From Desulfosporosinus sp. Sb-LF (GTDB taxonomy: Bacteria > Bacillota > Desulfitobacteriia > Desulfitobacteriales > Desulfitobacteriaceae): a stretch of DNA of 36,351 nucleotides. Location: NCBI RefSeq assembly GCF_004766055.1, contig NZ_SPQR01000021.1:1-36351 (forward strand). The letters run 5' to 3'. The position numbers were made by a program, and so were the translations under genes. Shown one piece after another: positions 2,422-33,201 of this stretch; position 1 is the first letter of the stretch; every line of letters begins with the position of its first letter. The notes beneath the pieces were generated by a model that saw nothing but the letters and a program-made list of their open reading frames with translations, was not told the DNA's origin and ran no database searches.

Positions 2422-3624
2422 TTACGCTGCTGTTTCCTCCACTACTTTTTTCTTTTGTGAAGCTTTTCCCCCATGTAACAAATGATATAAAAAGGCACAT
2501 GCAACCGTTACAATCGCCATACCCATATATACACCCCTGTAACCAGTAAAAGGGATAAATAATCCTAATACAAATGGTCCAACTCCAACCCCTACGTCAA
2601 CAAATATAAAAAAAGTAGAATTTGATAGTCCCAATCGGTGCTGTGGAGTCACTTTAACGGCAATTGCTTGGCCACAAGATTGTACAACTCCTAAGCCAAA
2701 ACCAAGAAAAGCTCCAGCAGCTAGTAAGGTAATCCCCTGACGGGCTTGACTAAGGAATATCATTCCGATCATGAAGATAATAAAGGCTGGATACATGATT
2801 ATATTTTCACCTTTGGAATCAAATAATCGACCAGTAACCGGTCTTGTAATTAAGATGACAACAGCGTATACGATGAAAAAGAAACTGGCTGCGTCCATCA
2901 AATGAATTTCTTTGGCATATGGTGTGAGGAAAGAGATGAGACTTGAATAGCAAAAGTAAATAATTGCACAAACGATAGAAATTGGAATGGCCTTTGATTC
3001 AAAGAAATTACTCCATTTGAATCCTTTCATCTCCTCTAATTGCTCATTCGTCAATTTAATTTCAGGAACAGATAAAAAGAAGGCGTTCACAAGAGTTAAT
3101 ACCGCAGAAATTGTGCAAGCCACAAAAATCAACCTGAAGCTCCCATATTGGATAATAAACATTCCAAGGAAGGGACCGATAGCCGTTGCAAGCGTAATGC
3201 TCAGCATGTAATAGCCAATACCTTCTCCTCTTCTGCTCTTAGGAATAATATTCGTCACAATTGTCCCTATTGCGGTAGCGGCAATACCATATGCAACGCC
3301 ATGAAGAAAGCGAATAATAAACAGGAGGCAAATATTATTTAAACCGAAATAGAATAACGTCATAACCAAACTTAAAATTGTTCCCGAAATGAGCATCCTT
3401 TTTCTGCCCACTCGTTCAATCCATCTCCCGCAAAACAAACGTGCAACAAGCGCCCCAATTACAAAAATGCTGGCTGCAAGACCCGCTTCACTGGGTGAGG
3501 AATCGAAAGTATCCATCGCATATGCGGTCATAATTACAATTAATAAATAGTAGTTCATCATAAGAAAAAAGTTCGTGAAAGTACCTATTAAGAAATCTTT
3601 CGTCCATAATTGGATTTTATTCAT
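2422..3624 (-). CDS. Major facilitator superfamily transporter
   Basis: A 400-residue protein with about 12 hydrophobic segments, the normal MFS size. The loop between TM2 and TM3 carries motif A as G-R-W-I-E-R-V-G-R-K-R (about 66-76), and G-P-F-L-G appears in TM5. A longer, more hydrophilic central loop (about 193-210) separates the two six-helix halves. The protein is most like drug/H+ antiporter-type exporters of Firmicutes, but the substrate cannot be read from the sequence. The C-terminus is short and Lys-rich. The ATG at 3624 is chosen because it gives a complete TM1; the ribosome site there is weak (AAGGCGGTCGGATAG). It stands alone: a portal remnant lies downstream and a recombinase remnant upstream on the opposite strand. 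Confidence 0.85.
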   Translation of the reverse strand: MNKIQLWTKDFLIGTFTNFFLMMNYYLLIVIMTAYAMDTFDSSPSEAGLAASIFVIGALVARLFCGRWIERVGRKRMLISGTILSLVMTLFYFGLNNICLLFIIRFLHGVAYGIAATAIGTIVTNIIPKSRRGEGIGYYMLSITLATAIGPFLGMFIIQYGSFRLIFVACTISAVLTLVNAFFLSVPEIKLTNEQLEEMKGFKWSNFFESKAIPISIVCAIIYFCYSSLISFLTPYAKEIHLMDAASFFFIVYAVVILITRPVTGRLFDSKGENIIMYPAFIIFMIGMIFLSQARQGITLLAAGAFLGFGLGVVQSCGQAIAVKVTPQHRLGLSNSTFFIFVDVGVGVGPFVLGLFIPFTGYRGVYMGMAIVTVACAFLYHLLHGGKASQKKKVVEETAA

Positions 3625-3708
3625 CTATCCGACCGCCTTTTAATATTCGTATAGTTACAAATACAATCATACATTTGAGCGGAATTTCCAAAGCGCGGGA
3701 TAAGCCTA

Positions 3709-4047
3709 CTGACAACCCACGCACTGCAGAACAACATCGCCACCGTTTTAAGCAGGGAAAACGATAAGGTCCTCACCGACATTGACAACCGGTTGGAGAA
3801 ACTGCAAACGGAGCTTTTGAAGCTGGCCAGCTCCAAGGCCGACTACGAAGATGTCGCCGATGAGATTTACCGCCTGCGCGAACATCCCACCGCCATTACC
3901 GAATACGACGAGCATCTGGTCCGGCGGCTGATTGAAAAGGTCACTGTCTACAAGAGTAAATTCGCTGTGGAATTTAAGTCCGGTGTGACGGTGAATGTGA
4001 AGGATGACGATAAAACGAGCAAGGCACTTTACGAGTTTGAAACGTAG
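3709..4047 (+). pseudogene. Large serine recombinase, C-terminal remnant
   Basis: The frame is open from 3679, and from about 3709 it reads like the C-terminal part of clostridial large serine recombinases (SpoIVCA/TndX type): N-N-I-A-T-V-L, a coiled coil RLEKLQTELLKLASSKADY, then V-A-D-E-I-Y-R-L-R, and the characteristic end EYDEHLVRRLIEKVTVYKSK plus V-E-F-K-S-G-V-T-V. The catalytic N-terminal domain and zinc ribbon are missing. About 25 residues normally found between Y-R-L-R and T-E-Y-D also seem deleted. The natural C-terminus is intact. It cannot be active. It points toward the ABC cassette that starts 220 bp downstream. Confidence 0.75.
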
Positions 4048-4266
4048 GGTGCCTTGTTTGTTTTTTCGGGTTTTATCTAATGAGAACCGACACTTAGTAT
4101 TCATTACTATGGGGCCTCCCCAAGCGACAGGTTCACCCTGTCACCCCAATAGAGCTACATTTCCATATAGTCATATTACGCACATGACACATCGCGCAGG
4201 AGTTCCTTCAAAGAGAGAATCCCCTCTCTTCATCTGCAACTTGGACGCCAAACAATTTATTGCAGA

Positions 4267-5796
4267 CTACTCCGAGATAATATCTCTGCGTGAAAAGAAG
4301 ACCAGGCCCAAACCTACCAACACAGCAGCCATCAGCAGCATCGTAAAAATGGAGGGAAAGGATACTGCGAGACCGGGGTAAACCCACGAAAACGGCGAGA
4401 GAGCGAAAACATTGTTGCCAATCACCTTAATCTCCCATAAAAACTCCATCAATATCAACGCGCCGAACACTCCCCAACTGACCGGCGCAGCGGCACGGGG
4501 CGCAAAGCCGTATAGAAACGCCGTGACCGAAGCAATTAGCCATACCACCGGCAGCCGTGCGATGCAGGAAGCAAAATCTCCGATGCAAAAGCCAAACAGT
4601 GCGATAGCCGCCGCACTGCCGATAAAGGCGATCAATAGATGACCTGCTGCATACCGTACGCGTGAAGCCGCACTGGATAATACCAATTCAGTGCGGGTCA
4701 TTGATTCTTCTTCCCGGATGCGCAAAATGGCCATGATCGCGTAGGCGGTCAAAACCTGCGTCAAGATATAGGCCAGTATCGCGAGGAATGCGCGTCCAGG
4801 TCCGCCTAAAATAGCTGATAATCCAGGTAAGAAGGCCGTGCCTTCAAGCATTGTGTTGATCTTGGGCACGAGCGAAGCGATAATCAAGCCCATCACAACG
4901 TATGCCGCCACCCAAACGAAAAGCATATCCCTTTGCTGTCGCCAAGCGAGTGCTAAAGGGCTTTTGAAGCTTTTGCGCGCATAAACTCTGCCGCCACGTT
5001 CCCTGAGATAACTTCCGCCCATATCTCGACGGTCGTCTAGACGATAGGCGATGGCCGTCAGCAGGGCGATGGCCGGTATTGCAAACGCGAATAACCAGAA
5101 ATTCTCTCCTGCGAAGGGGCGCGCGTATGCGCACCAGCCGAACGGCGTCCACAGCATCAAACTCATGTTTCCAGCAACATTGGCGAGGATCTGACACACA
5201 AAGAAAAAAGTAAGCGCTCCAAACGAAAGCCCACGAGCCAAGCGCGCATTCGGCGCAACCTGTGCCGCAATTGCTGCCATTGCAGCAAAGCTGCAGCTAC
5301 AAAGCGCCGATGCTAGCCCTGCCACCCATGAACCCACTGCCGGAAAACCAGCCGCTATAAATCCCAGGCCCATCGCCAAACCGCCCAGCGAATTCGCGCA
5401 AAATACTTTTATCAATACGGCCGTCAGCGATGCTTTTGGTCCCACAGCGCCAGCGCGAAGAAGCTCTAGCCTACCTTGATCTTCGTCCTTGCGCGTGTTA
5501 TTGATGATGAGTACGATGCTGAGGATCGACGTAATGATTACGGTAGAAAGCCGTATGCGCCAAATTGTTGCGCCCGCAATTGAGCTTGCGACAATGGAAC
5601 CCAGCAGCAAGTTTCCTTGATTTTCCCTGATGTAGGTGCTTAACTGATCCGGCGTTTGTAAGATTGCCATATTGGATGCCGCCGCAGCATAGGCAAACAG
5701 AAACGGCAGCAAGATGAGTAAGGATGTCATCACCTTGTTATTCCGAAGGTAGATTTTTAGCAAGTTTCCGGTCGCTGTGTAGTCGTTTTGTTTCAT
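4267..5796 (-). CDS. ABC-2-type exporter permease
   Basis: A 509-residue polytopic protein with about 12 hydrophobic segments, arranged as two halves separated by a basic cytoplasmic stretch (about 250-275, R-G-G-R-V-Y-A-R-K). It resembles the TnrB3/tetronasin-resistance-type permeases that work with a DrrA-like ATPase to export antibiotics or lipids. The motif R-K-D-E-D-Q-G-R-L-E-L-L in the first half and E-E-E-S-M-T-R-T-E-L-V-L in the second are the paired cytoplasmic loops typical of this family and probably contact the ATPase. Its ATG overlaps the ATPase stop (ATGA, 5793-5796), so the two are translationally coupled. Base composition is richer in G+C than the flanks, suggesting transfer. 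The natural substrate is unknown. Confidence 0.85.
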   Translation of the reverse strand: MKQNDYTATGNLLKIYLRNNKVMTSLLILLPFLFAYAAAASNMAILQTPDQLSTYIRENQGNLLLGSIVASSIAGATIWRIRLSTVIITSILSIVLIINNTRKDEDQGRLELLRAGAVGPKASLTAVLIKVFCANSLGGLAMGLGFIAAGFPAVGSWVAGLASALCSCSFAAMAAIAAQVAPNARLARGLSFGALTFFFVCQILANVAGNMSLMLWTPFGWCAYARPFAGENFWLFAFAIPAIALLTAIAYRLDDRRDMGGSYLRERGGRVYARKSFKSPLALAWRQQRDMLFVWVAAYVVMGLIIASLVPKINTMLEGTAFLPGLSAILGGPGRAFLAILAYILTQVLTAYAIMAILRIREEESMTRTELVLSSAASRVRYAAGHLLIAFIGSAAAIALFGFCIGDFASCIARLPVVWLIASVTAFLYGFAPRAAAPVSWGVFGALILMEFLWEIKVIGNNVFALSPFSWVYPGLAVSFPSIFTMLLMAAVLVGLGLVFFSRRDIISE

Positions 5797-6683
5797 TGCA
5801 CTTCACCCCCCTTGGCATAATAGTGCAAAAAGAGATCCTCCAACTCAGGCGGGGCGCAATGCAATGAAACAATTTTATATTCTGTCAACTTCTTTAACGA
5901 CGCATTGAGGGCTGCGGAATTGACGCTAAAGCTCGCCATATTTCCTTCGCAACGAAGGCCGTATACGCCTGGAAGCTGTATCCCTGTGACAGGCCGCGTA
6001 CATTCCACATGTACGACCAGTCGTGAAAACTGCTGCAATTCGAGCAGACTGCCTGATTCCACAATCCGCCCCTCTTTGATAATGGTTACGCGGTCACAGA
6101 GTTTTTCAACCTCAGTCAAAATATGGCTGGATAAGAACACTGTTTTCCCCCGCGTCGCCATTTCCCGCACATAATCCTGAAACACCGATTCCATCAGTGG
6201 GTCAAGACCGGATGTCGGTTCGTCGAAAATATACAGCTCAACATCCGACACAAGCGCCGCAATTAACGCAACTTTTTGCCGATTGCCTTTGGAATAAGTG
6301 CGGCATTTTTTACTCGGATCAAACTGGAAACGCTCGATCAGTTCCGCGCGCCGTTTGGAATCCGGCTTACCGCGCATACGAGAAAGCAGATCGATAACCT
6401 CGCCGCCACTTAGATCGGGCCACGGATTGATTTCACTTGGTATATAAGCTAGTCGTTTATGCAGCTCCACACAGTCCTTGAAAGGATCGCCATCCAACAG
6501 TTTTACCTCACCGCCGTCCTTTTTCAGCATACCGAGCAGAATGCGGATTGTCGTGGATTTTCCCGCGCCGTTCATGCCGATGAATCCGTGGACTTCGCCT
6601 TGCTTCACGGATAGATCGATACCACAAAGCGCCTGTGTTTTTCCGTAGGATTTGGTCAGACCGATTATTTCGATGACTGCCAT
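5793..6683 (-). CDS. ABC transporter ATP-binding protein (DrrA-like)
   Basis: A 296-residue nucleotide-binding subunit. Walker A is GMNGAGKST (36-44). The signature is degenerate, Y-S-K-G-N-R-Q-K, as is common in the DrrA/CcmA group. Walker B is LYIFDEPTSGLDP and the switch His lies in F-L-S-S-H. The roughly 80-residue C-terminal extension ending in E-D-L-F-L-H-Y-Y is typical of this group. It should power export by the permease encoded directly downstream. A ribosome site AGGAGG lies just before the ATG, and the TetR-like remnant ends 11 bp upstream, so the three genes form one minus-strand unit in the order regulator, ATPase, permease. Confidence 0.92.
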   Translation of the reverse strand: MAVIEIIGLTKSYGKTQALCGIDLSVKQGEVHGFIGMNGAGKSTTIRILLGMLKKDGGEVKLLDGDPFKDCVELHKRLAYIPSEINPWPDLSGGEVIDLLSRMRGKPDSKRRAELIERFQFDPSKKCRTYSKGNRQKVALIAALVSDVELYIFDEPTSGLDPLMESVFQDYVREMATRGKTVFLSSHILTEVEKLCDRVTIIKEGRIVESGSLLELQQFSRLVVHVECTRPVTGIQLPGVYGLRCEGNMASFSVNSAALNASLKKLTEYKIVSLHCAPPELEDLFLHYYAKGGEVQ

Positions 6684-6694
6684 TGTAATTCCTC

Positions 6695-7108
6695 CTACCT
6701 ATAAAAGCTCGTTCGAAAAAGTTGGATGTAGCGTTCGAGATCGCTTAAATACCGCTTGTATTCACCGTAGTAATCAGCGGTTGATTTGTCAGGATTCGCT
6801 TCGCCTTGCGCATAGCTTTCTATCGTGCAGAGTATGACGCTGATTGCCGTGTCCACATCGATATCCTCACGGAATAGGGTGCGGTCGATGTCATAGAACA
6901 GTTTAGGATATACGTCATTAGTCTGCTTATCTCGCTGTTCCAGGATGCTGCTTTTGATGTCAGCGCTATCGAGAAATGATACGTGTGCGATAAAATTAAA
7001 AACCATTGGGTGTTTTTGCATTAAGTCCATCTTGAGCAACGTGATTTGTCTCAAGCGTTCCAAAATATCTCTCTCATCCAAGTTGACTAAATCGTAAAAT
7101 TCCGCCAT
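6695..7108 (-). pseudogene. TetR-type regulator without its DNA-binding domain
   Basis: The 137-residue frame (MAEFYDLVNLDERDILERLR onward) is all-helical and looks like the ligand-binding C-terminal part of TetR/AcrR regulators that sit before DrrA-like ABC operons, ending in L-E-R-Y-I-Q-L-F-R-T-S-F. Family members are about 190-200 residues and begin with a 50-residue helix-turn-helix; none is present. An in-frame TAA lies just before the nominal ATG, and the upstream DNA instead encodes the tail of a serine recombinase in another frame. The regulator was therefore cut by a recombination event and should no longer bind DNA, which would leave the ABC pair without this repressor. Confidence 0.65.
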
Positions 7109-7197
7109 AACAACGCATTAAATATTTCTTCATCGAACTCTTCAAGTAGTGAATCCCGGCTGTTTATTATTTCAGAGATTTCGTCAATCCTTCCGCT
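7087..7197 (-). pseudogene. Serine-recombinase-like C-terminal tail
   Basis: A short frame between TGA (7198-7200) and TAG (7087-7089) encodes 36 residues, including INSRDSLLEEFDEEIFNALL. The L-L-E-E-F-D-E-E-I-F-N-A-L string matches the segment just before the final beta-strand of large serine recombinases of the SpoIVCA type. After A-L-L the similarity stops and the sequence becomes TetR-like in a different frame. This marks a recombination joint near 7105. The call rests on a short motif only. Confidence 0.4.
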
Positions 7198-7232
7198 TCA
7201 TATATTGCACCGACTCGCTGTTCTACTGTTCT

Positions 7233-7865
7233 TTACCGAATGAAATTTGTGAATGTAATTTCTTCTCTTTCTGGGAAAGCAATGCCTGCTTTTATTCCAG
7301 CTTCTTTGCATTTTAAGAAGAATGCCATATTTCTGCCTAAGGTACGCATAATCTGAAGCCCTTCTATATCCTTTTTCACATCTTCAGGCGTGGCACCGTG
7401 AACCATATTCCAATATTGCGATGAGATAATAGGCATTTGCGCTATGGTGAAATACTTGTTTAGCTGGTCAAAGGTTGCAGTTGTTCCGGCTCTTCTGGCT
7501 GATACGACAGCAGCTGCTGGTTTCAAATTAAAAGGCTGCTTACTTGAACGTGAACCTGCATAAAATGCACGATCCATAAAAGAAGTTATTGCCCCACTGG
7601 CAGCTGCAAAGTGTACCGGAGAACCAAATATATAGCCATCAAAATTTCCTGCTATTTCAAGAAATTCATTGACTTTGTCATCAAATACACAATGACCTAG
7701 CTGGAAACATCTTTTACAGGCAGTACATCCAGCCAATGGCTTTGTTCCAATTTGAAATATTTCCGTATCTATTCCTTCATGATTTAAAGTTTCTGCCACT
7801 TCGTTTAATGCTGTATAGGTACATCCTTTTTCATGTGGACTTCCATTTACTAATAATACTTTCAT
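7233..7865 (-). CDS. Flavodoxin-like NADPH-dependent FMN reductase
   Basis: A 210-residue flavodoxin-fold protein. It starts M-K-V-L-L-V-N-G-S-P-H, the FMN-phosphate loop, with a second FMN contact at F-G-S-P-V-H-F. A cluster T-A-C-K-R-C-F-Q-L-G-H-C (about 50-61) resembles the CxxC...C region of Fe-S flavoproteins and related reductases. It probably reduces FMN, quinones or other small oxidants with NAD(P)H in the cytoplasm. The start at 7865 is used because AAGGAG stands directly before it; the longer frame would start with a TTG inside that ribosome site. No co-transcribed neighbour is evident. A paralogue lies at 22456. Confidence 0.85.
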   Translation of the reverse strand: MKVLLVNGSPHEKGCTYTALNEVAETLNHEGIDTEIFQIGTKPLAGCTACKRCFQLGHCVFDDKVNEFLEIAGNFDGYIFGSPVHFAAASGAITSFMDRAFYAGSRSSKQPFNLKPAAAVVSARRAGTTATFDQLNKYFTIAQMPIISSQYWNMVHGATPEDVKKDIEGLQIMRTLGRNMAFFLKCKEAGIKAGIAFPEREEITFTNFIR

Positions 7866-8027
7866 AGTTTTCTCCTTCAATCTTAGATTTGAGTATTTTA
7901 TAGCATAACTTGTTCTATATATACCCTATCACTTAGTCATTCCGAGTATACTCCCCTGTTCCATTCTTAAATTGGTTCTACTACAGATAAATGGATGCTG
8001 CTTGGCATGTTTACAATTAGCTATATT

Positions 8028-8218
8028 CTACTTGTAAGATTTTGTATAAATTGCCACGCAGTCCTCAAGGGTCAGCATCACTCTGTTTACCAGAAACTGG
8101 GCACCCATTGTGGCTTTTGCATTTTTATCAACGCAGTAATGAAGTCCATCGGCTCCTTGGCATCCTCCATGCCCATGATCTTTGCCATAATATTATAATC
8201 ATAATCTTGAGAGTTTAC
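8028..8218 (-). pseudogene. Possible iron-containing alcohol dehydrogenase tail, frameshifted
   Basis: Two overlapping minus-strand frames together look like the C-terminal end of a group III (iron) alcohol dehydrogenase. The first (8087-8218) has Y-N-I-M-A-K-I-M-G-M-E-D-A-K, like the helix with I-A-x-x-M-G in that family. The second (8028-8090) reads L-T-L-E-D-C-V-A-I-Y-T-K-S-Y-K then stop, like the usual final helix (E-D-x-x-x-I-Y-x-x-A-Y). A frameshift near 8088 separates them and everything upstream is missing. Similarity is limited to short motifs, so the family call is tentative. Confidence 0.35.
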
Positions 8219-8229
8219 TCTCAGTCAAG
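8206..8229. promoter_or_regulatory. Palindromic operator-like site before the MerR remnant
   Basis: GAGAGT (8209-8214) and ACTCTC (8217-8222) form a perfect repeat with a 2-base centre, extended outward by CTTGA and TCAAG. It lies about 55 bp before the MerR-type start codon, where MerR regulators often bind, but the assignment to that protein is inferred from position only. Confidence 0.35.
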
Positions 8230-8281
8230 TGTTTTTTCTTGATTTGGCTAAAAAATTCTTAGAATATTACTGGAGGACAAG

Positions 8282-8443
8282 ATGTTTTATACCGTAAATG
8301 ATGTTGCTAAACGAACAAAACTTTCAGTTCATACGATCCGTTACTATGCGAAAGAAGGGCTTGTCAATCAAAGATATAAAAGCTTTTTCCGACTTCCCCG
8401 CGGTGGCTACGCTATGGACTCGATGTCCTTTCGTCACATGTAG
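8282..8443 (+). pseudogene. MerR-family regulator, N-terminal DNA-binding fragment
   Basis: The first 28 residues, MFYTVNDVAKRTKLSVHTIR followed by Y-Y-A-K-E-G-L-V, are a textbook MerR winged-helix start: Y-x-V-x-x-V-A, the recognition helix, then R-Y-Y-x-x-x-G-L. A good ribosome site (TGGAGGAC) precedes the ATG. After about residue 34 the MerR pattern is lost and the frame stops at residue 53; normal members are 110-250 residues with a C-terminal effector part. The effector domain and part of the wing are gone, probably by deletion. Confidence 0.75.
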
Positions 8444-8581
8444 AGATACTAGAAACCAAAATATATAAAAACGCACAGGTTAAGCAAGACAGCCACCCCG
8501 GCGGAGTTCGCCCCGATATGTCATCGAGCAGTTTACGGAGGCGAGTTGGTGGGAAGGGGCTTGGGCTACAGCATTTATTGT

Positions 8582-10848: not shown

Positions 10849-11306
10849 TTATGAGCAGCTTATTATTAGCTTTCTCTCCCGCTTAAATAATGGCAAACTA
10901 AACATTTCTTTACCTCCGTAATAATGCATAAATAACTCCTCAAGGTTCTGCGGCTTAATATCAAGATTGGTGACTTCATATTTATCTAGAGTATGTATTA
11001 GCGGCATTATATTGTCCTTAACCGACACAGTTACTTTTTTCCCCAGGCTATCTTTTACATCAAAGTCCTCTTTAGCAAAGTTCGCAGCCATTTCTTCTGA
11101 TAAAAAGGTGATAATATAAGCTTTATGTTTTGAATGTGAAAGTGTTTTCATATCCTCAACAGCAACCAAATAGCCATCCTTGATAATAGCTGTGCGGTCA
11201 CAGGTTCGTTCAATCTCGTCAAAAATATGTGATGACATAAAGATTGTTTTACCTTTTTTTTCGATAAAATTAGCTCAAGGAATTTATTTTGCATTAGAGG
11301 CCTTGG
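10849..11306 (-). pseudogene. ABC exporter ATPase C-terminal half fused to permease start
   Basis: From about 11306 the minus strand reads P-L-M-Q-N-K-F-L-E-L-I-L-S-K-K-K. After a frameshift in an A8 run (near 11258) it continues G-K-T-I-F-M-S-S-H-I-F-D-E-I-E, the post-Walker-B helix and switch His of a DrrA-like ATPase. The C-terminal domain follows, with N-L-E-E-L-F-M-H-Y-Y. The frame then runs into MFSLPLFKRERK, the usual first residues of the partner permease, and stops a few codons later. Walker A, the signature and Walker B are gone upstream, and all but about 12 codons of the permease are gone downstream. Confidence 0.75.
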
Positions 11307-18996: not shown

Positions 18997-20575
18997 TGTC
19001 AAGATAGTTGTCGCATTTGACCAAAATTTCTTGCTCACTGAATGTATTAATCACGACGAATGGAAGGTACCGGACGCTCGGCGCTTGCCAGAAGTAACTT
19101 TTGTGATCTGCGGATCAAAAAGTCCCTTCGGTCCTTCAGCTTCTCCACATGCGTTGTTGTCCCTGTGATCCTCAGCGAGCATATCCTCAGCCTAGCGGCT
19201 TCGGTATCCCTCGTGGGACACGGACAACCAAATCATTACTTCGCTCAAAAGCCTATGACGCAGTTGGTTTAGACTCTTTTTTATCTTCAACCTGAGATTT
19301 CTCAGGATTAAGCCATACTTCATTGATCAAGGACCAGTCCCTTGTTTGACCTGTCCAACGTTCCGGATGACGAGACTTCGCAGCCTCATAGAGCAGGTGT
19401 CGTTTCTTAAGTATTTCTTCACCCTGGCCGCTGTGACGCTGGTGTGGGGTAAGAAATTTGATCCCACTATGGTGATGGTTGTAGTTGTACCAATGGACGA
19501 ATTTTTTGACCCATGTTCTGGCTTCATTAATAGTAGCAAATCCTCCAATTGGGTAGCTTGGACGGTATTTGCAGGTTCGGAAAATGGACTCCGAAAAAGG
19601 ATTGTCATTGCTAACCCTGGGGCGACTCCTTGAAGGCGTAATACCTAATTGATAGAGCGTTTCTAGCATTGCCGAGCCTTTCATAGGGCTTCCATTATCT
19701 GAATGGAGGACTAAAGGACCTTCTTGTCTGGTTATACCCTGAGCCATGACAGCCCGCCGAATGAGTTGACTGGCATGTTCTGCGGACTCTTCGATCCAGA
19801 CTTCCCATCCGACAATGTCTCGGCTAAAGATGTCCAGAATCAGGTATAAATAGAAGTAGAGTCCTCTAGCAAGGCCAGGCAGATATGTAATATCCCACGA
19901 CCATACTCGATTGGGTTCGGTAGCACAATGTGAGGATTTAGGCTTACTGGAGGGCGCCTTGCAACGACCACGATAATTCTGTTCGCCCGCTTCGTGCATG
20001 ACTCGATAGAAGGTTGATTCAGAGGCAATGTAGATTCCTTGATCCGCAAGAATCGGGACAATCTGACTGGGTGGCAAACTTTGAAATTCAGGTTGGTTAA
20101 CTATCTCCAAAATCTCCTTGCATTCTGCATCCGTGAGCTTATTAGCCGGTTCAGGACGCTTAGCCAAGGGTCGCTGATCGGCTTCAGGGGCTCCATCCTT
20201 ACACCAACGTTGCCACGACTTGACCTGCTCAACATACAACCCTTTCTTACGACAGTATTCGGCCAGTTCGATCTCACTGAGAGGGGACGTCTCAACCACA
20301 ATGAGAAACTTGTCGCGTGTGCTCCACTGCTCACTTTGCTGCTCACCAGCAGGTGCAGCAAATCCCTTTCCCCGTATCTCTTTCCGCCACAACTTCAAAG
20401 TCCCCTCTGGGACACCGGTCTCCTGCTGAATTGAACTTAGAGACTGGTTGTTCGGCGGTAACATCTTTGCAATGATAGAACTTTTTAACTCTTTGGGATA
20501 CCTCATGACGTTCTCCCTCCTGTGTTCCTTTTCAAGGATACTGTTCTTTAATCCCTACGACAACTATCGTAACAC
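18997..20575 (-). mobile_element. IS3-type insertion sequence with one long transposase ORF
   Basis: The ends share GATAGTTGTCG in inverted orientation: left 19003-19013 and right as its complement at 20557-20567, with weaker matches outward. This gives an element of about 1.58 kb around the transposase gene at 19253-20506. The 240 bp between the left end and the transposase stop holds no convincing gene. The exact ends and target duplication could not be fixed by eye. Confidence 0.65.
19253..20506 (-). CDS. IS3-family-like DDE transposase
   Basis: A 417-residue transposase in one frame. The N-terminus, M-R-Y-P-K-E-L-K-S-S-I-I-A-K-M-L, is a helix-turn-helix with G-V-P-E-G-T-L-K-L-W. The catalytic rve domain shows the three acidic residues in D-I-T-Y-L-P-G (first D), L-H-S-D-N-G-S-P-M-K (second D) and S-N-D-N-P-F-S-E-S-I-F-R (E). 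H-W-Y-N-Y-N-H-H-H-S-G-I near the end is the usual C-terminal motif. All key residues are present, so it may be active. In most IS3 elements this protein is made by frameshifting between two ORFs; here it is a single uninterrupted frame. Confidence 0.9.
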   Translation of the reverse strand: MRYPKELKSSIIAKMLPPNNQSLSSIQQETGVPEGTLKLWRKEIRGKGFAAPAGEQQSEQWSTRDKFLIVVETSPLSEIELAEYCRKKGLYVEQVKSWQRWCKDGAPEADQRPLAKRPEPANKLTDAECKEILEIVNQPEFQSLPPSQIVPILADQGIYIASESTFYRVMHEAGEQNYRGRCKAPSSKPKSSHCATEPNRVWSWDITYLPGLARGLYFYLYLILDIFSRDIVGWEVWIEESAEHASQLIRRAVMAQGITRQEGPLVLHSDNGSPMKGSAMLETLYQLGITPSRSRPRVSNDNPFSESIFRTCKYRPSYPIGGFATINEARTWVKKFVHWYNYNHHHSGIKFLTPHQRHSGQGEEILKKRHLLYEAAKSRHPERWTGQTRDWSLINEVWLNPEKSQVEDKKESKPTAS

Positions 20576-32018: not shown

Positions 32019-32906
32019 CTACGCACTCATTTGTAGTAAAGCGGGGTAATACATATGTGCTGGAGTTTCGTAATTCAAAGCTGAGTGCAATTTCACAAAG
32101 TTGTATTTGTGGATAAACTCGGCAATTTGTTTCCTTGCATCCTTGATATGTTCATAATCCTTAAGGTAGACTTCATCATATTTGAGTGTCCTAAACCAGC
32201 GTTCTATGGGAATGTTGTCAGCCCATCTGCCTTTACCGTCCATGCTAATTTTACTCTTGTTATTGATGACAAAATCAATATATTCATGGCTTGTAAATTG
32301 GCTGCCCTGATCGGAATTTAATATCTCTGGTGTGGCAACAGCATAGGCCATCTTTAAGGCCCGGATAACCATTCGTGTTGATAGCGTGTCATCCAGCTCC
32401 CAGCCAACGATGCACTTGCTATGCCAATCAATGATAGCGGTTAAGTAAATGAATCCACGTCTTAGCTTGATGTAGGTAACATCGATCGACCAGGCCTGAT
32501 TTGCTCGGCTGATGACAGCGTTACGTAGCAGATAAGGGTAGATTCTATGCCCCTTTGCGGGCTTGGATAGGTTTGGTCTCGGATAAATTGCCTCAATGCC
32601 CATCTCTTGCATATACTTCCTTGTTTTGAGCCTACCAGTCTTAATGCCTTGTTTTTGCAATGTCTTGGATAGTTGCCTTGAGCCCCAAGATGGGCTTTCG
32701 GTGTGGATTGCATCAATTTTATGCTTGACCATTATTTCAAAGTCAGAAGGCTCTTTTGGCGCGTAATACACGCTTGTCCGGTTGACGTCTAAAAACCCTG
32801 CAATGGTGGACAAGGGTAGCGGTTTCTCGTTATTTTCAATGTTCTTATGATCCTTGATTTCAGCCTTTTGGGCGTGGAGTAAACCGACTCTTCCAGTCAG
32901 GTCCAA
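32019..32906 (-). CDS. IS3-family transposase OrfB (catalytic part)
   Basis: A 295-residue frame with the rve/DDE core: S-I-D-V-T-Y-I-K-L (first D), L-N-S-D-Q-G-S-Q-F-T-S (second D) and W-A-D-N-I-P-I-E-R-W-F-R (E). H-K-Y-N-F-V-K-L-H-S-A-L follows. The preceding HTH_21-like region has S-W-G-S-R-Q-L-S-K-T-L. All catalytic residues are present. It overlaps orfA by 47 bases and lies in the +1 (equivalently -2) frame relative to it, not the -1 frame usual in IS3. A run of nine A (32920-32928 as T on the + strand) lies inside the shared open region and could allow slippage. The annotated start is TTG without a strong ribosome site. Confidence 0.88.
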   Translation of the reverse strand: MDLTGRVGLLHAQKAEIKDHKNIENNEKPLPLSTIAGFLDVNRTSVYYAPKEPSDFEIMVKHKIDAIHTESPSWGSRQLSKTLQKQGIKTGRLKTRKYMQEMGIEAIYPRPNLSKPAKGHRIYPYLLRNAVISRANQAWSIDVTYIKLRRGFIYLTAIIDWHSKCIVGWELDDTLSTRMVIRALKMAYAVATPEILNSDQGSQFTSHEYIDFVINNKSKISMDGKGRWADNIPIERWFRTLKYDEVYLKDYEHIKDARKQIAEFIHKYNFVKLHSALNYETPAHMYYPALLQMSA

Positions 32907-33201
32907 GAATTTCTTCAGATTTTTTTTTGAGCCAATCGACTTGCGTAGTCAATTGACCAACTTTTTTATATAAGCTATCGTTTTCCCGCTCCTGATCCTT
33001 AACTTTTTCCTGCAACACCTTGTCTTTTTTGTTATCAAATACATTGGCTGCATTAGCCAAAAATTCATTTTTCCAGTTCCGCAGCTGGTTAGGCGCTATT
33101 TCATGGGCACTGGCGATTTGGTTTAGTTCCTTTTCGCCTCGCAATACCTCTAAAACTATCTCCGCCTTAAATTCTGCGCTAAATACTCTTTTCTTCATCA
33201 A
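32860..33201 (-). CDS. IS3-family OrfA (DNA-binding part)
   Basis: A 113-residue protein. The N-terminus, M-K-K-R-V-F-S-A-E-F-K-A-E-I-V-L-E, and I-A-P-N-Q-L-R-N-W-K-N-E-F form the HTH_Tnp_1 domain that recognises IS ends. A leucine-zipper-like coiled coil follows (about 63-95, ending V-D-W-L-K-K-K). The C-terminal tail, G-P-D-W-K-S-R-F-T-P-R-P-K-G, is typical of the family. Either fusion to OrfB by slippage at the A9 run or independent translation would give the active set. Confidence 0.88.
   Translation of the reverse strand: MMKKRVFSAEFKAEIVLEVLRGEKELNQIASAHEIAPNQLRNWKNEFLANAANVFDNKKDKVLQEKVKDQERENDSLYKKVGQLTTQVDWLKKKSEEILGPDWKSRFTPRPKG

Follow-up and report, generated by a model that had tools for sequence, protein, structure and literature searches.

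Why does the TetR gene of a DrrA-like ABC export operon in Desulfosporosinus sp. Sb-LF break off against the tail of a serine recombinase gene, and what are the recombinase tails that stand on both sides of this operon? The initial annotation of the window (the whole stretch of 36,351 nucleotides analysed here) had suggested that the cassette was captured or trimmed by recombination between integrative elements. Our analysis leads to another explanation, which we regard as the best for the whole of the evidence and as probably correct: a deletion at a dispersed hairpin repeat cut the operon, and the repeat itself descends from the 3' end of a recombinase gene. The features concerned are listed in Table 1.

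Table 1. Features around the truncated export operon, in window coordinates
Feature	Position	Strand	Basis
MFS transporter, on the far side of the plus-strand recombinase fragment	2422..3624	-	PF07690
Decayed large serine recombinase C-terminal fragment, L122 type	3709..4047	+	tblastn, translation; plasmid/phage relatives
Strong stem-loop at the fragment's end, T-rich runs on both sides	4012..4064		RNA fold of the + strand, z -8.4
Leader motif of repeat subtype C	4136..4179	-	two matches in own contig C14; shared with L032
ABC permease, 509 aa	4267..5796	-	85-89% identical homologues
ABC ATPase, 296 aa, DrrA-like	5793..6683	-	PF00005; TIGR01188 below cut-off
TetR remnant, 137 codons, without 73 N-terminal residues including the HTH	6695..7108	-	comparison with L031-L033
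Joint: recombinase GCGTTG against TetR TTATGG	7111..7113		sequence comparison
Recombinase 3' tail, gene nt 1494-1575	7111..7192	-	DNA match; covariance model only 22.6 bits
NADPH-dependent FMN reductase	7233..7880	-	PF03358

An export operon without its regulatory start

Three other Desulfosporosinus loci (L031, L032 and L033) hold the same operon with TetR intact, in frames of 213, 210 and 243 aa respectively, the last of which uses an upstream TTG start. Their gene order TetR, ATPase, permease is that of TetR-controlled DrrA-like ABC export operons, whereas the window copy stands without the promoter, the probable operator and the TetR HTH. In fact, the TetR_N domain spans residues 20-63 of the L032 protein and the window remnant begins at its residue 74; TetR_N is present in L032, while neither it nor any other Pfam family is matched in the remnant. 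For the permease, no convincing Pfam domain was found. The homology of the window to the three intact loci ends at 7111-7113 in 3/3 cases, so that TetR has indeed lost its DNA-binding half exactly where the second tail begins, as first annotated, and at this joint lies a TTG which is common to the TetR genes of L031 and L033 and absent from L032.

Moreover, a promoter-like site upstream of TetR in L032 (TTGACT-17-TAAAAT, positions 4401-4429) and a palindrome-like stretch before the gene (TTGACCGATTAAGTCAA), which is the probable operator, are both gone from the window. The earlier description of an exporter without its repressor is thus incomplete. Since the deletion would have taken promoter and probable operator as well, simple derepression of the exporter is rejected. 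The FMN-reductase gene, which has the same direction, now immediately precedes the remnant operon, and the exporter genes may be transcribed from it by read-through. Relaxed selection on the remnant operon is not seen in pairwise dN/dS, with values for ATPase, permease and TetR remnant of 0.10-0.16 in the window comparisons versus 0.04-0.17 between the relatives, all being pairwise and not branch-specific.

Two tails from different recombinases

Both tails face inward as annotated, the first on the plus strand (3709-4044) and the second on the minus strand (7111-7192). The reported recombinase C-terminus on the plus strand is confirmed by its match to a 530-aa recombinase frame in L122, with 52% identity over the aligned part (tblastn, E 4e-32), recognisable similarity from about 3724 onward and, by eye, about 28 codons deleted in frame. 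It also matches L124, L123 and a place in the own genome (C14:54583), as well as large serine recombinases of plasmids and phages. Pfam gave sub-threshold matches only (the best to DUF4368, E 0.009), and PHROGs assigned the fragment to an integrase family (E 2.6e-5). Hairpins comparable to the one at its end lie 3' of the gene in L122, L123 and L005, and, as far as the sequence tells, the window stem-loop could be the minus-strand terminator of the exporter operon.

The minus-strand tail, first drawn at 7087-7197, does match a serine recombinase at the DNA level, though about 24 nt of that stretch are TetR and the recombinase part is confined to 7111-7192, where 88% of the nucleotides are identical to an intact recombinase gene (nt 1494-1575) at another place in the genome. 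In a whole-genome search it reached E 7.9e-22 at the tail of this gene and E 1.5e-24 at C14:58839, and its amino-acid identity to most other copies is 67-91%. Its homology is read from the DNA match, because the 36-aa translation has no Pfam family and a single PHROGs match (E 0.4).

The gene behind this tail is a single long ORF (L198:3-1613) with Resolvase, Recombinase and Zn-ribbon domains and is 44% identical, over 93-94%, to the recombinases of Streptococcus phage phi-SsuFJNP3_rum and of Enterococcus plasmids. It differs from such phage and plasmid recombinases in that a stem-loop (z -6.5, and -4.8 in a longer stretch), which is found loose throughout the genus, falls on the 3' end of its coding sequence. 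The plus-strand fragment is only 22% identical to this gene and 22-29% to its relatives; on these identities the two tails come from different recombinases.

A hairpin repeat dispersed through the genus

The loose stem-loop, which has a stem of 17 pairs, is a dispersed repeat, and the minus-strand tail in the window ends with the first 9 nt of its 17-nt 5' arm. This broken copy is weakly found by the covariance model R1 (E 0.011) and folds into no comparable stem over 7111-7192. Searched against its own genome, the recombinase gene gave 29 matches besides itself (among the best 40 of 46 candidates), 27 of which lie in gene nt 1250-1665, with 25 of these 27 beginning at nt 1481 or later. At E <= 0.01, R1 has matches in all 29 genomes of the genus, 1-23 in each (among the best 125 candidates at most per genome) and at least 247 together, of which at least 23 are in the own genome besides the broken window copy; these counts include copies inside recombinase genes, and the model was built from copies in the same genomes. 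Outside the genus, at E <= 0.001 and with stricter filters, 6 of 44 genomes of the order have a match among those listed. Rfam at the gathering score finds nothing in the window or in 12 hairpin loci, and the repeat is described in no title or abstract opening among the papers listed by searches on Desulfosporosinus/Desulfitobacterium repeats, serine recombinases, MITEs and palindromic terminators.

For the alignment of orphan copies, 72 of 94 hairpin references were used; the 22 omitted by eye are recombinase genes, copies with recombinase-like sequence upstream, the truncated locus L102 and opposite-strand duplicates of palindromic matches. In this alignment 95.1% of the stem cells are paired. 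The covariation is weak, with the relatedness of the copies uncontrolled: the score is 0.129 versus 0.021-0.057 in slid versions and was equalled by 1 of 500 shuffles, while the nine double-change cells lie within the slid controls (3-11) and the double-change pairs were equalled by 17 of 500. Most of the 72 selected orphans are non-coding, intergenic and on the strand of their neighbours. Read in the recombinase frame, 42 of them meet a stop within 24 codons (as do 4 of the 22 omitted copies), 24 have a hairpin length that is out of frame, 17 are stop-free, in frame and still have the HF motif, and 66 lie outside ORFs of 80 aa. By crude ORF calls, and with many flanks of only 500 bp, the upstream ORF is on the same strand for 35 of the 44 orphans with one in reach (p 1e-4); the bias is towards both neighbours and not only to a position after a gene, since the downstream ORFs are likewise mostly on the same strand (33 versus 14, p 0.008). 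As in intrinsic (Rho-independent) terminators, the stem-loop is followed by a T-rich run (TTTTGTTTTT) and is mostly co-directional with the gene upstream of it, whereas its 17-pair stem is conserved in sequence and dispersed, the terminator role being putative.

How did these copies arise? Judged by the sequence match, the source of the repeat is probably the 3' coding end of a large serine recombinase, and two readings, each of which we consider possible, if not the likelier outcome, differ on what followed. The tails could be what many past integrations left behind, namely recombinase genes, once full-length, that have since decayed, with no small repeat having moved and the hairpin persisting as a useful terminator. 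This agrees with the strand bias, with a graded series of 5'-truncated copies (from gene nt 1250, 1335, 1481, 1493 and 1510 onward) and with the flank-sharing locus pairs L145/L186 and L141/L150, where the left part differs and the hairpin is kept; however, the sequence ahead of many copies is no fading recombinase but one of three further leader repeats (subtypes B, C and D), about 200-400 bp long when the tail is counted. Alternatively, the repeat might belong among small non-autonomous mobile elements of the MITE or REP kind that are mobilised in trans, perhaps by the recombinase itself, a reading that draws on the discrete composite subtypes with one common 3' end, on the copy number and on the near-restriction to the genus. 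Against it, the subtype consensuses and three locus pairs compared, which offered no clean empty site, defined no target-site duplication or terminal inverted repeat, inspection by eye showed no common target, and large serine recombinases normally require specific attachment sites. No mobilising enzyme was identified for the repeat, and no tRNA target was found in the window.

In its form the repeat is REP-like, in that REP/BIME elements are also short, dispersed and mostly extragenic stem-loops. Its copies differ in extending into the 3' end of a recombinase gene and in their low number per genome, REP copies usually exceeding 100 per genome (PMC2817692). Moreover, the GT(A/G)G head that precedes the REP palindrome (PMC2817692) is absent, by eye, from the hairpin consensus of the 72-copy alignment (AAATATTTAATGCGTTGG). 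A RAYT origin is rejected for the own genome, in which the Y1 transposase family PF01797 has no match, the control search being positive in 5 of 14; this absence also speaks against a mobile element.

Insertion sequences at the hairpins

REPs are targets of IS3-family and other insertion sequences (PMC1525189). For the loose hairpins we propose a similar role, as places where an IS3-like insertion sequence lands. In the own genome, all five places of its end 1 abut hairpin copies (5/5, with the query's own copy included), and the junctions fall at gene nt 1582-1592, where the hairpin loop occupies 1584-1591. A hairpin junction had supplied the query, the assembly may lack IS copies that were collapsed, and the genome-wide search covered end 1 only. 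Among 13 IS junctions in the fetched loci, a set biased to hairpin loci, three lie outside any hairpin copy (L008, one side of L027, and L107/window).

How the operon was probably cut

With regard to the exporter, the events would have been as follows. A TetR-ABC exporter operon lay beside members of the dispersed repeat, one copy being upstream of TetR in the same orientation, as in L033, where a same-strand hairpin lies some 450 bp ahead of the TetR ATG, another one follows the permease and a second was seen there by eye. A deletion then would have fused the 5' arm of this hairpin to TetR codon 74, probably at the shared TTG. Promoter, probable operator and HTH would have gone with the remainder of the hairpin, leaving the intact ABC genes downstream of the TetR remnant and of the co-directional FMN-reductase gene. 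We infer the deletion and its direction, since the arrangement before it (FMN reductase, hairpin, TetR) was found in no relative. On the 3' side of the permease, the corresponding repeat would have lost its hairpin and now abuts the different recombinase tail with its own terminator-like stem-loop: in L032, which has one hairpin after the permease, the subtype C leader is followed by the hairpin, and in the window, by eye, this part is missing. Because the 82 nt of the minus-strand tail hold sequence upstream of the hairpin, the tail may have been left by a longer recombinase gene and not by a loose repeat. The stem-loop at the recombinase gene's 3' end is probably the transcription terminator of that gene, and its loose copies would have spread, or been retained, after other genes, where they would offer landing sites to the insertion sequence.

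The capture first proposed, with two integrative elements flanking the cassette and trimming it by site-specific or homologous recombination, is now very unlikely, for although both tails are C-termini of large serine recombinases and the break lies at one of them, the tails come from different recombinases, hairpin tails occur genus-wide, and they do not mark capture since the L032 and L033 operons with intact TetR also adjoin them. An assembly chimera at repeated sequence, suggested by the repetitive tail and by several contig ends at hairpin/IS copies (C3, C4, C10 and C14), is likewise very unlikely, because the longest exact match to other own-genome loci is 33 nt for 7050-7250 (39 loci, some overlapping) and 17 nt for 3690-4140, so that a chimeric join would need short k-mers. 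Among the matches listed from the 28 other genomes of the genus (the best 10 candidates at most in each), none spans either joint.

Implications

The story of a captured cassette is thereby replaced by a common feature of Desulfosporosinus, namely intergenic hairpins derived from a recombinase, which are landing places for insertion sequences and at which at least one truncation, that of the exporter operon, ends. For annotators, this is a warning that such tails are not each an integrative element. As a tentative reading, for which we would claim less than an even chance, a portable transcription terminator arose out of a serine recombinase gene's 3' end, giving RAYT-free hairpins after genes across the genus, either alone or as the common 3' end of several composite repeats of 200-400 bp, which would form a preferred IS3-like target and a recurrent breakpoint of operon-rewiring deletions. 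It would be a natural case where the 3' end of a coding sequence may double as a dispersed regulatory hairpin.

The truncated TetR gene of the exporter operon

The features named in the initial annotation are present in the sequence of the window, which is the entire contig C21 (36,351 bp) of an assembly of 30 contigs totalling 4.27 Mb, and the TetR remnant, the ATPase and the permease form a minus-strand operon. When this operon is compared with its counterparts in three other Desulfosporosinus loci (L031, L032 and L033; 87-90% DNA identity), where the TetR frames have 213, 210 and 243 aa respectively (in L033 the start is an upstream TTG), the similarity stops at 7111-7113 in all three, at residue 74 of the L032 TetR, whose TetR_N spans residues 20-63. 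At the joint, GCGTTG closes the recombinase tail and TTATGG is the TetR continuation; the TTG is common to L031 (CTTGTTATGG) and L033 (CTTGTAATGG) and absent from L032 (CTGGTTATGG). Exact matches between the joint region and the other copies examined in the same genome reach 33 nt at most. Judged by eye, TetR is preceded in all three relatives by TTGACT with TAAAAT or TAAAGT at promoter distance, followed by a palindrome-like TTGACC...GTCAA stretch, and both elements are gone from the window; a promoter scan, run for L032 only, gave a match at 4401-4429.

Features of the exporter region (window positions) and subtypes of the composite repeat
Feature	Position or loci	Strand	Remark
Permease	4267-5796	-	
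ATPase	5793-6683	-	PF00005
TetR remnant	6695-7108	-	
Subtype B	L083, L141, L142, L178, L183, L145		own leader, recombinase-tail hairpin as 3' end
Subtype C	L055, L101, L067, L061		own leader, recombinase-tail hairpin as 3' end
Subtype D	L143, L169, L174, L181		own leader, recombinase-tail hairpin as 3' end

Other possibly truncated frames occur in the window. By eye, a frame at 8282-8570 resembles a MerR N-terminus (MFYTVNDVAKRTKLSVHTIRYYAKEGL...) and runs out near 8390, where another genus-repeated stretch starts (8389-8569, with matches in genomes G019, G021, G024 and G028); it may be a second case of a regulator truncated at a repeat. Also by eye, the apparently truncated frame at 10849-11238 looks like an ABC ATPase reduced to its C-terminal half (MSSHIFDEIERTCDRTAIIKDGYL...).

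The minus tail as a dispersed hairpin

The two recombinase tails taken to bracket the cassette both exist, but they are different things and match different recombinases. The plus fragment resembles the 530-aa recombinase frame of locus L122 with about 28 codons missing in frame, and ends in a strong stem-loop (4012-4064, fold z -8.4) with similar hairpins at the corresponding place in L122, L123 and L005. The minus tail matches nt 1494-1575 of another recombinase gene (L010/L198), whose product has Resolvase, Recombinase and Zn-ribbon domains and is about 44% identical to recombinases of phages and plasmids.

By its matches, the minus tail is assigned to a dispersed repeat. Used as query, this gene gave 30 matches in its own genome. 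One is the gene itself, 27 are pieces from nt 1250-1665, of which 25 begin at nt 1481 or later, and 2 are other pieces; some of the 27 pair up as the halves of a single interrupted copy. The core is AATGCGTTGGTTGAGAA-GATAGAAA-TTCTCACGCCAACGCATT (gene nt 1567-1609), then TTTTGTTTTT. Among 94 hairpin copies collected, 72 orphans were aligned; the 17-pair stem is retained in 95.1% of cells and the loop length varies from 1 to 21. The covariation score is higher than in the slid versions and in 499 of 500 shuffles, and covariation is nevertheless weak because the double-change count does no better than the slid versions. Most orphans do not code, since 42/72 run into an in-frame stop within 24 codons and just 17/72 retain frame and motif with no stop. 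A covariance model found 1-23 matches in each of the 29 genus genomes (247 in total) and 1-2 in each of 6 out of 44 genomes of the order outside the genus; in one such match examined (L204), the hairpin lies at the end of a recombinase frame that is open for at least 537 codons, an arrangement consistent with a gene origin of the repeat. An Rfam search returned no match for the window or for 12 hairpin loci.

With ORFs counted from 80 aa upwards, most orphans (66/72) fall outside them. The upstream ORF in reach is on the hairpin's strand in 35/44 cases (p 1e-4; 31/38 and 25/31 at limits of 100 and 120 aa), and the downstream ORF in 33/47 (p 0.008; 25/37 and 19/29), a bias which, along with the T-run, fits a terminator between co-directional genes, though not specifically. 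At least three distinct repeated leaders (B, C and D) occur on orphans, making composite repeats of about 200-400 bp that share their 3' end; in locus pairs with shared flanks, the left part varies and the hairpin is retained. No clean empty site was found in the loci compared, and a search of the organism's own genome for a Y1 transposase gave no match. Within this genome, copies are concentrated in few regions (C4:1-24000, C14 and C25), and several contig ends lie at hairpin or IS copies. At C4:4200-4618 (L071/L073), a short piece from the start of the recombinase gene (query nt 1-49) is followed some 330 bp later by a tail piece (nt 1576-1617), an arrangement resembling an internally deleted derivative.

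Insertion sequences also meet these hairpins. One end of an IS, judged IS3-like by eye from an OrfA-like frame and the ends of the element, occurs at five genomic sites, including the query's own copy, and all five abut hairpin copies around the loop; for two end types, 10 of 13 junctions listed in the fetched loci, a set biased to hairpin loci, fall inside the hairpin or a close variant. REPs are already known as sites of IS insertion (PMC1525189). The contig itself opens with an IS end (1-106, TGGTGTGCACCCCGTCAA, minus strand) inserted within an open frame after ATGCGTTGGCAGAGGCAATA, which resembles the hairpin arm favoured by the IS; two rve-type transposase genes lie elsewhere in the window (19253-20506 and 32019-33201).

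Loss of the TetR start and its possible consequence

Hairpins accompany the operon in relatives with intact TetR: L032 has a subtype-C leader and hairpin just downstream of the permease, and L033 has hairpins on both sides, some 450 bp upstream of the TetR ATG and downstream of the permease, while the stretch of L031 examined has none. In the window, the L032 leader follows the permease (4136-4179) without its hairpin, and the upstream hairpin is reduced to 9 nt of its 5' arm. Upstream, the simplest event would be a single deletion running from the arm of the hairpin into TetR. Pairwise dN/dS is 0.10-0.16 for window comparisons and 0.04-0.17 among relatives, with the TetR remnant likewise similar, and this resemblance suggests a recent loss. 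Promoter-like sites in 6500-8300 are no commoner than in shuffles. Because the hairpin is broken (fold z +1.4) and no terminator-like site is listed on the minus strand of the same interval, FMN-reductase transcripts could run into the ABC genes.
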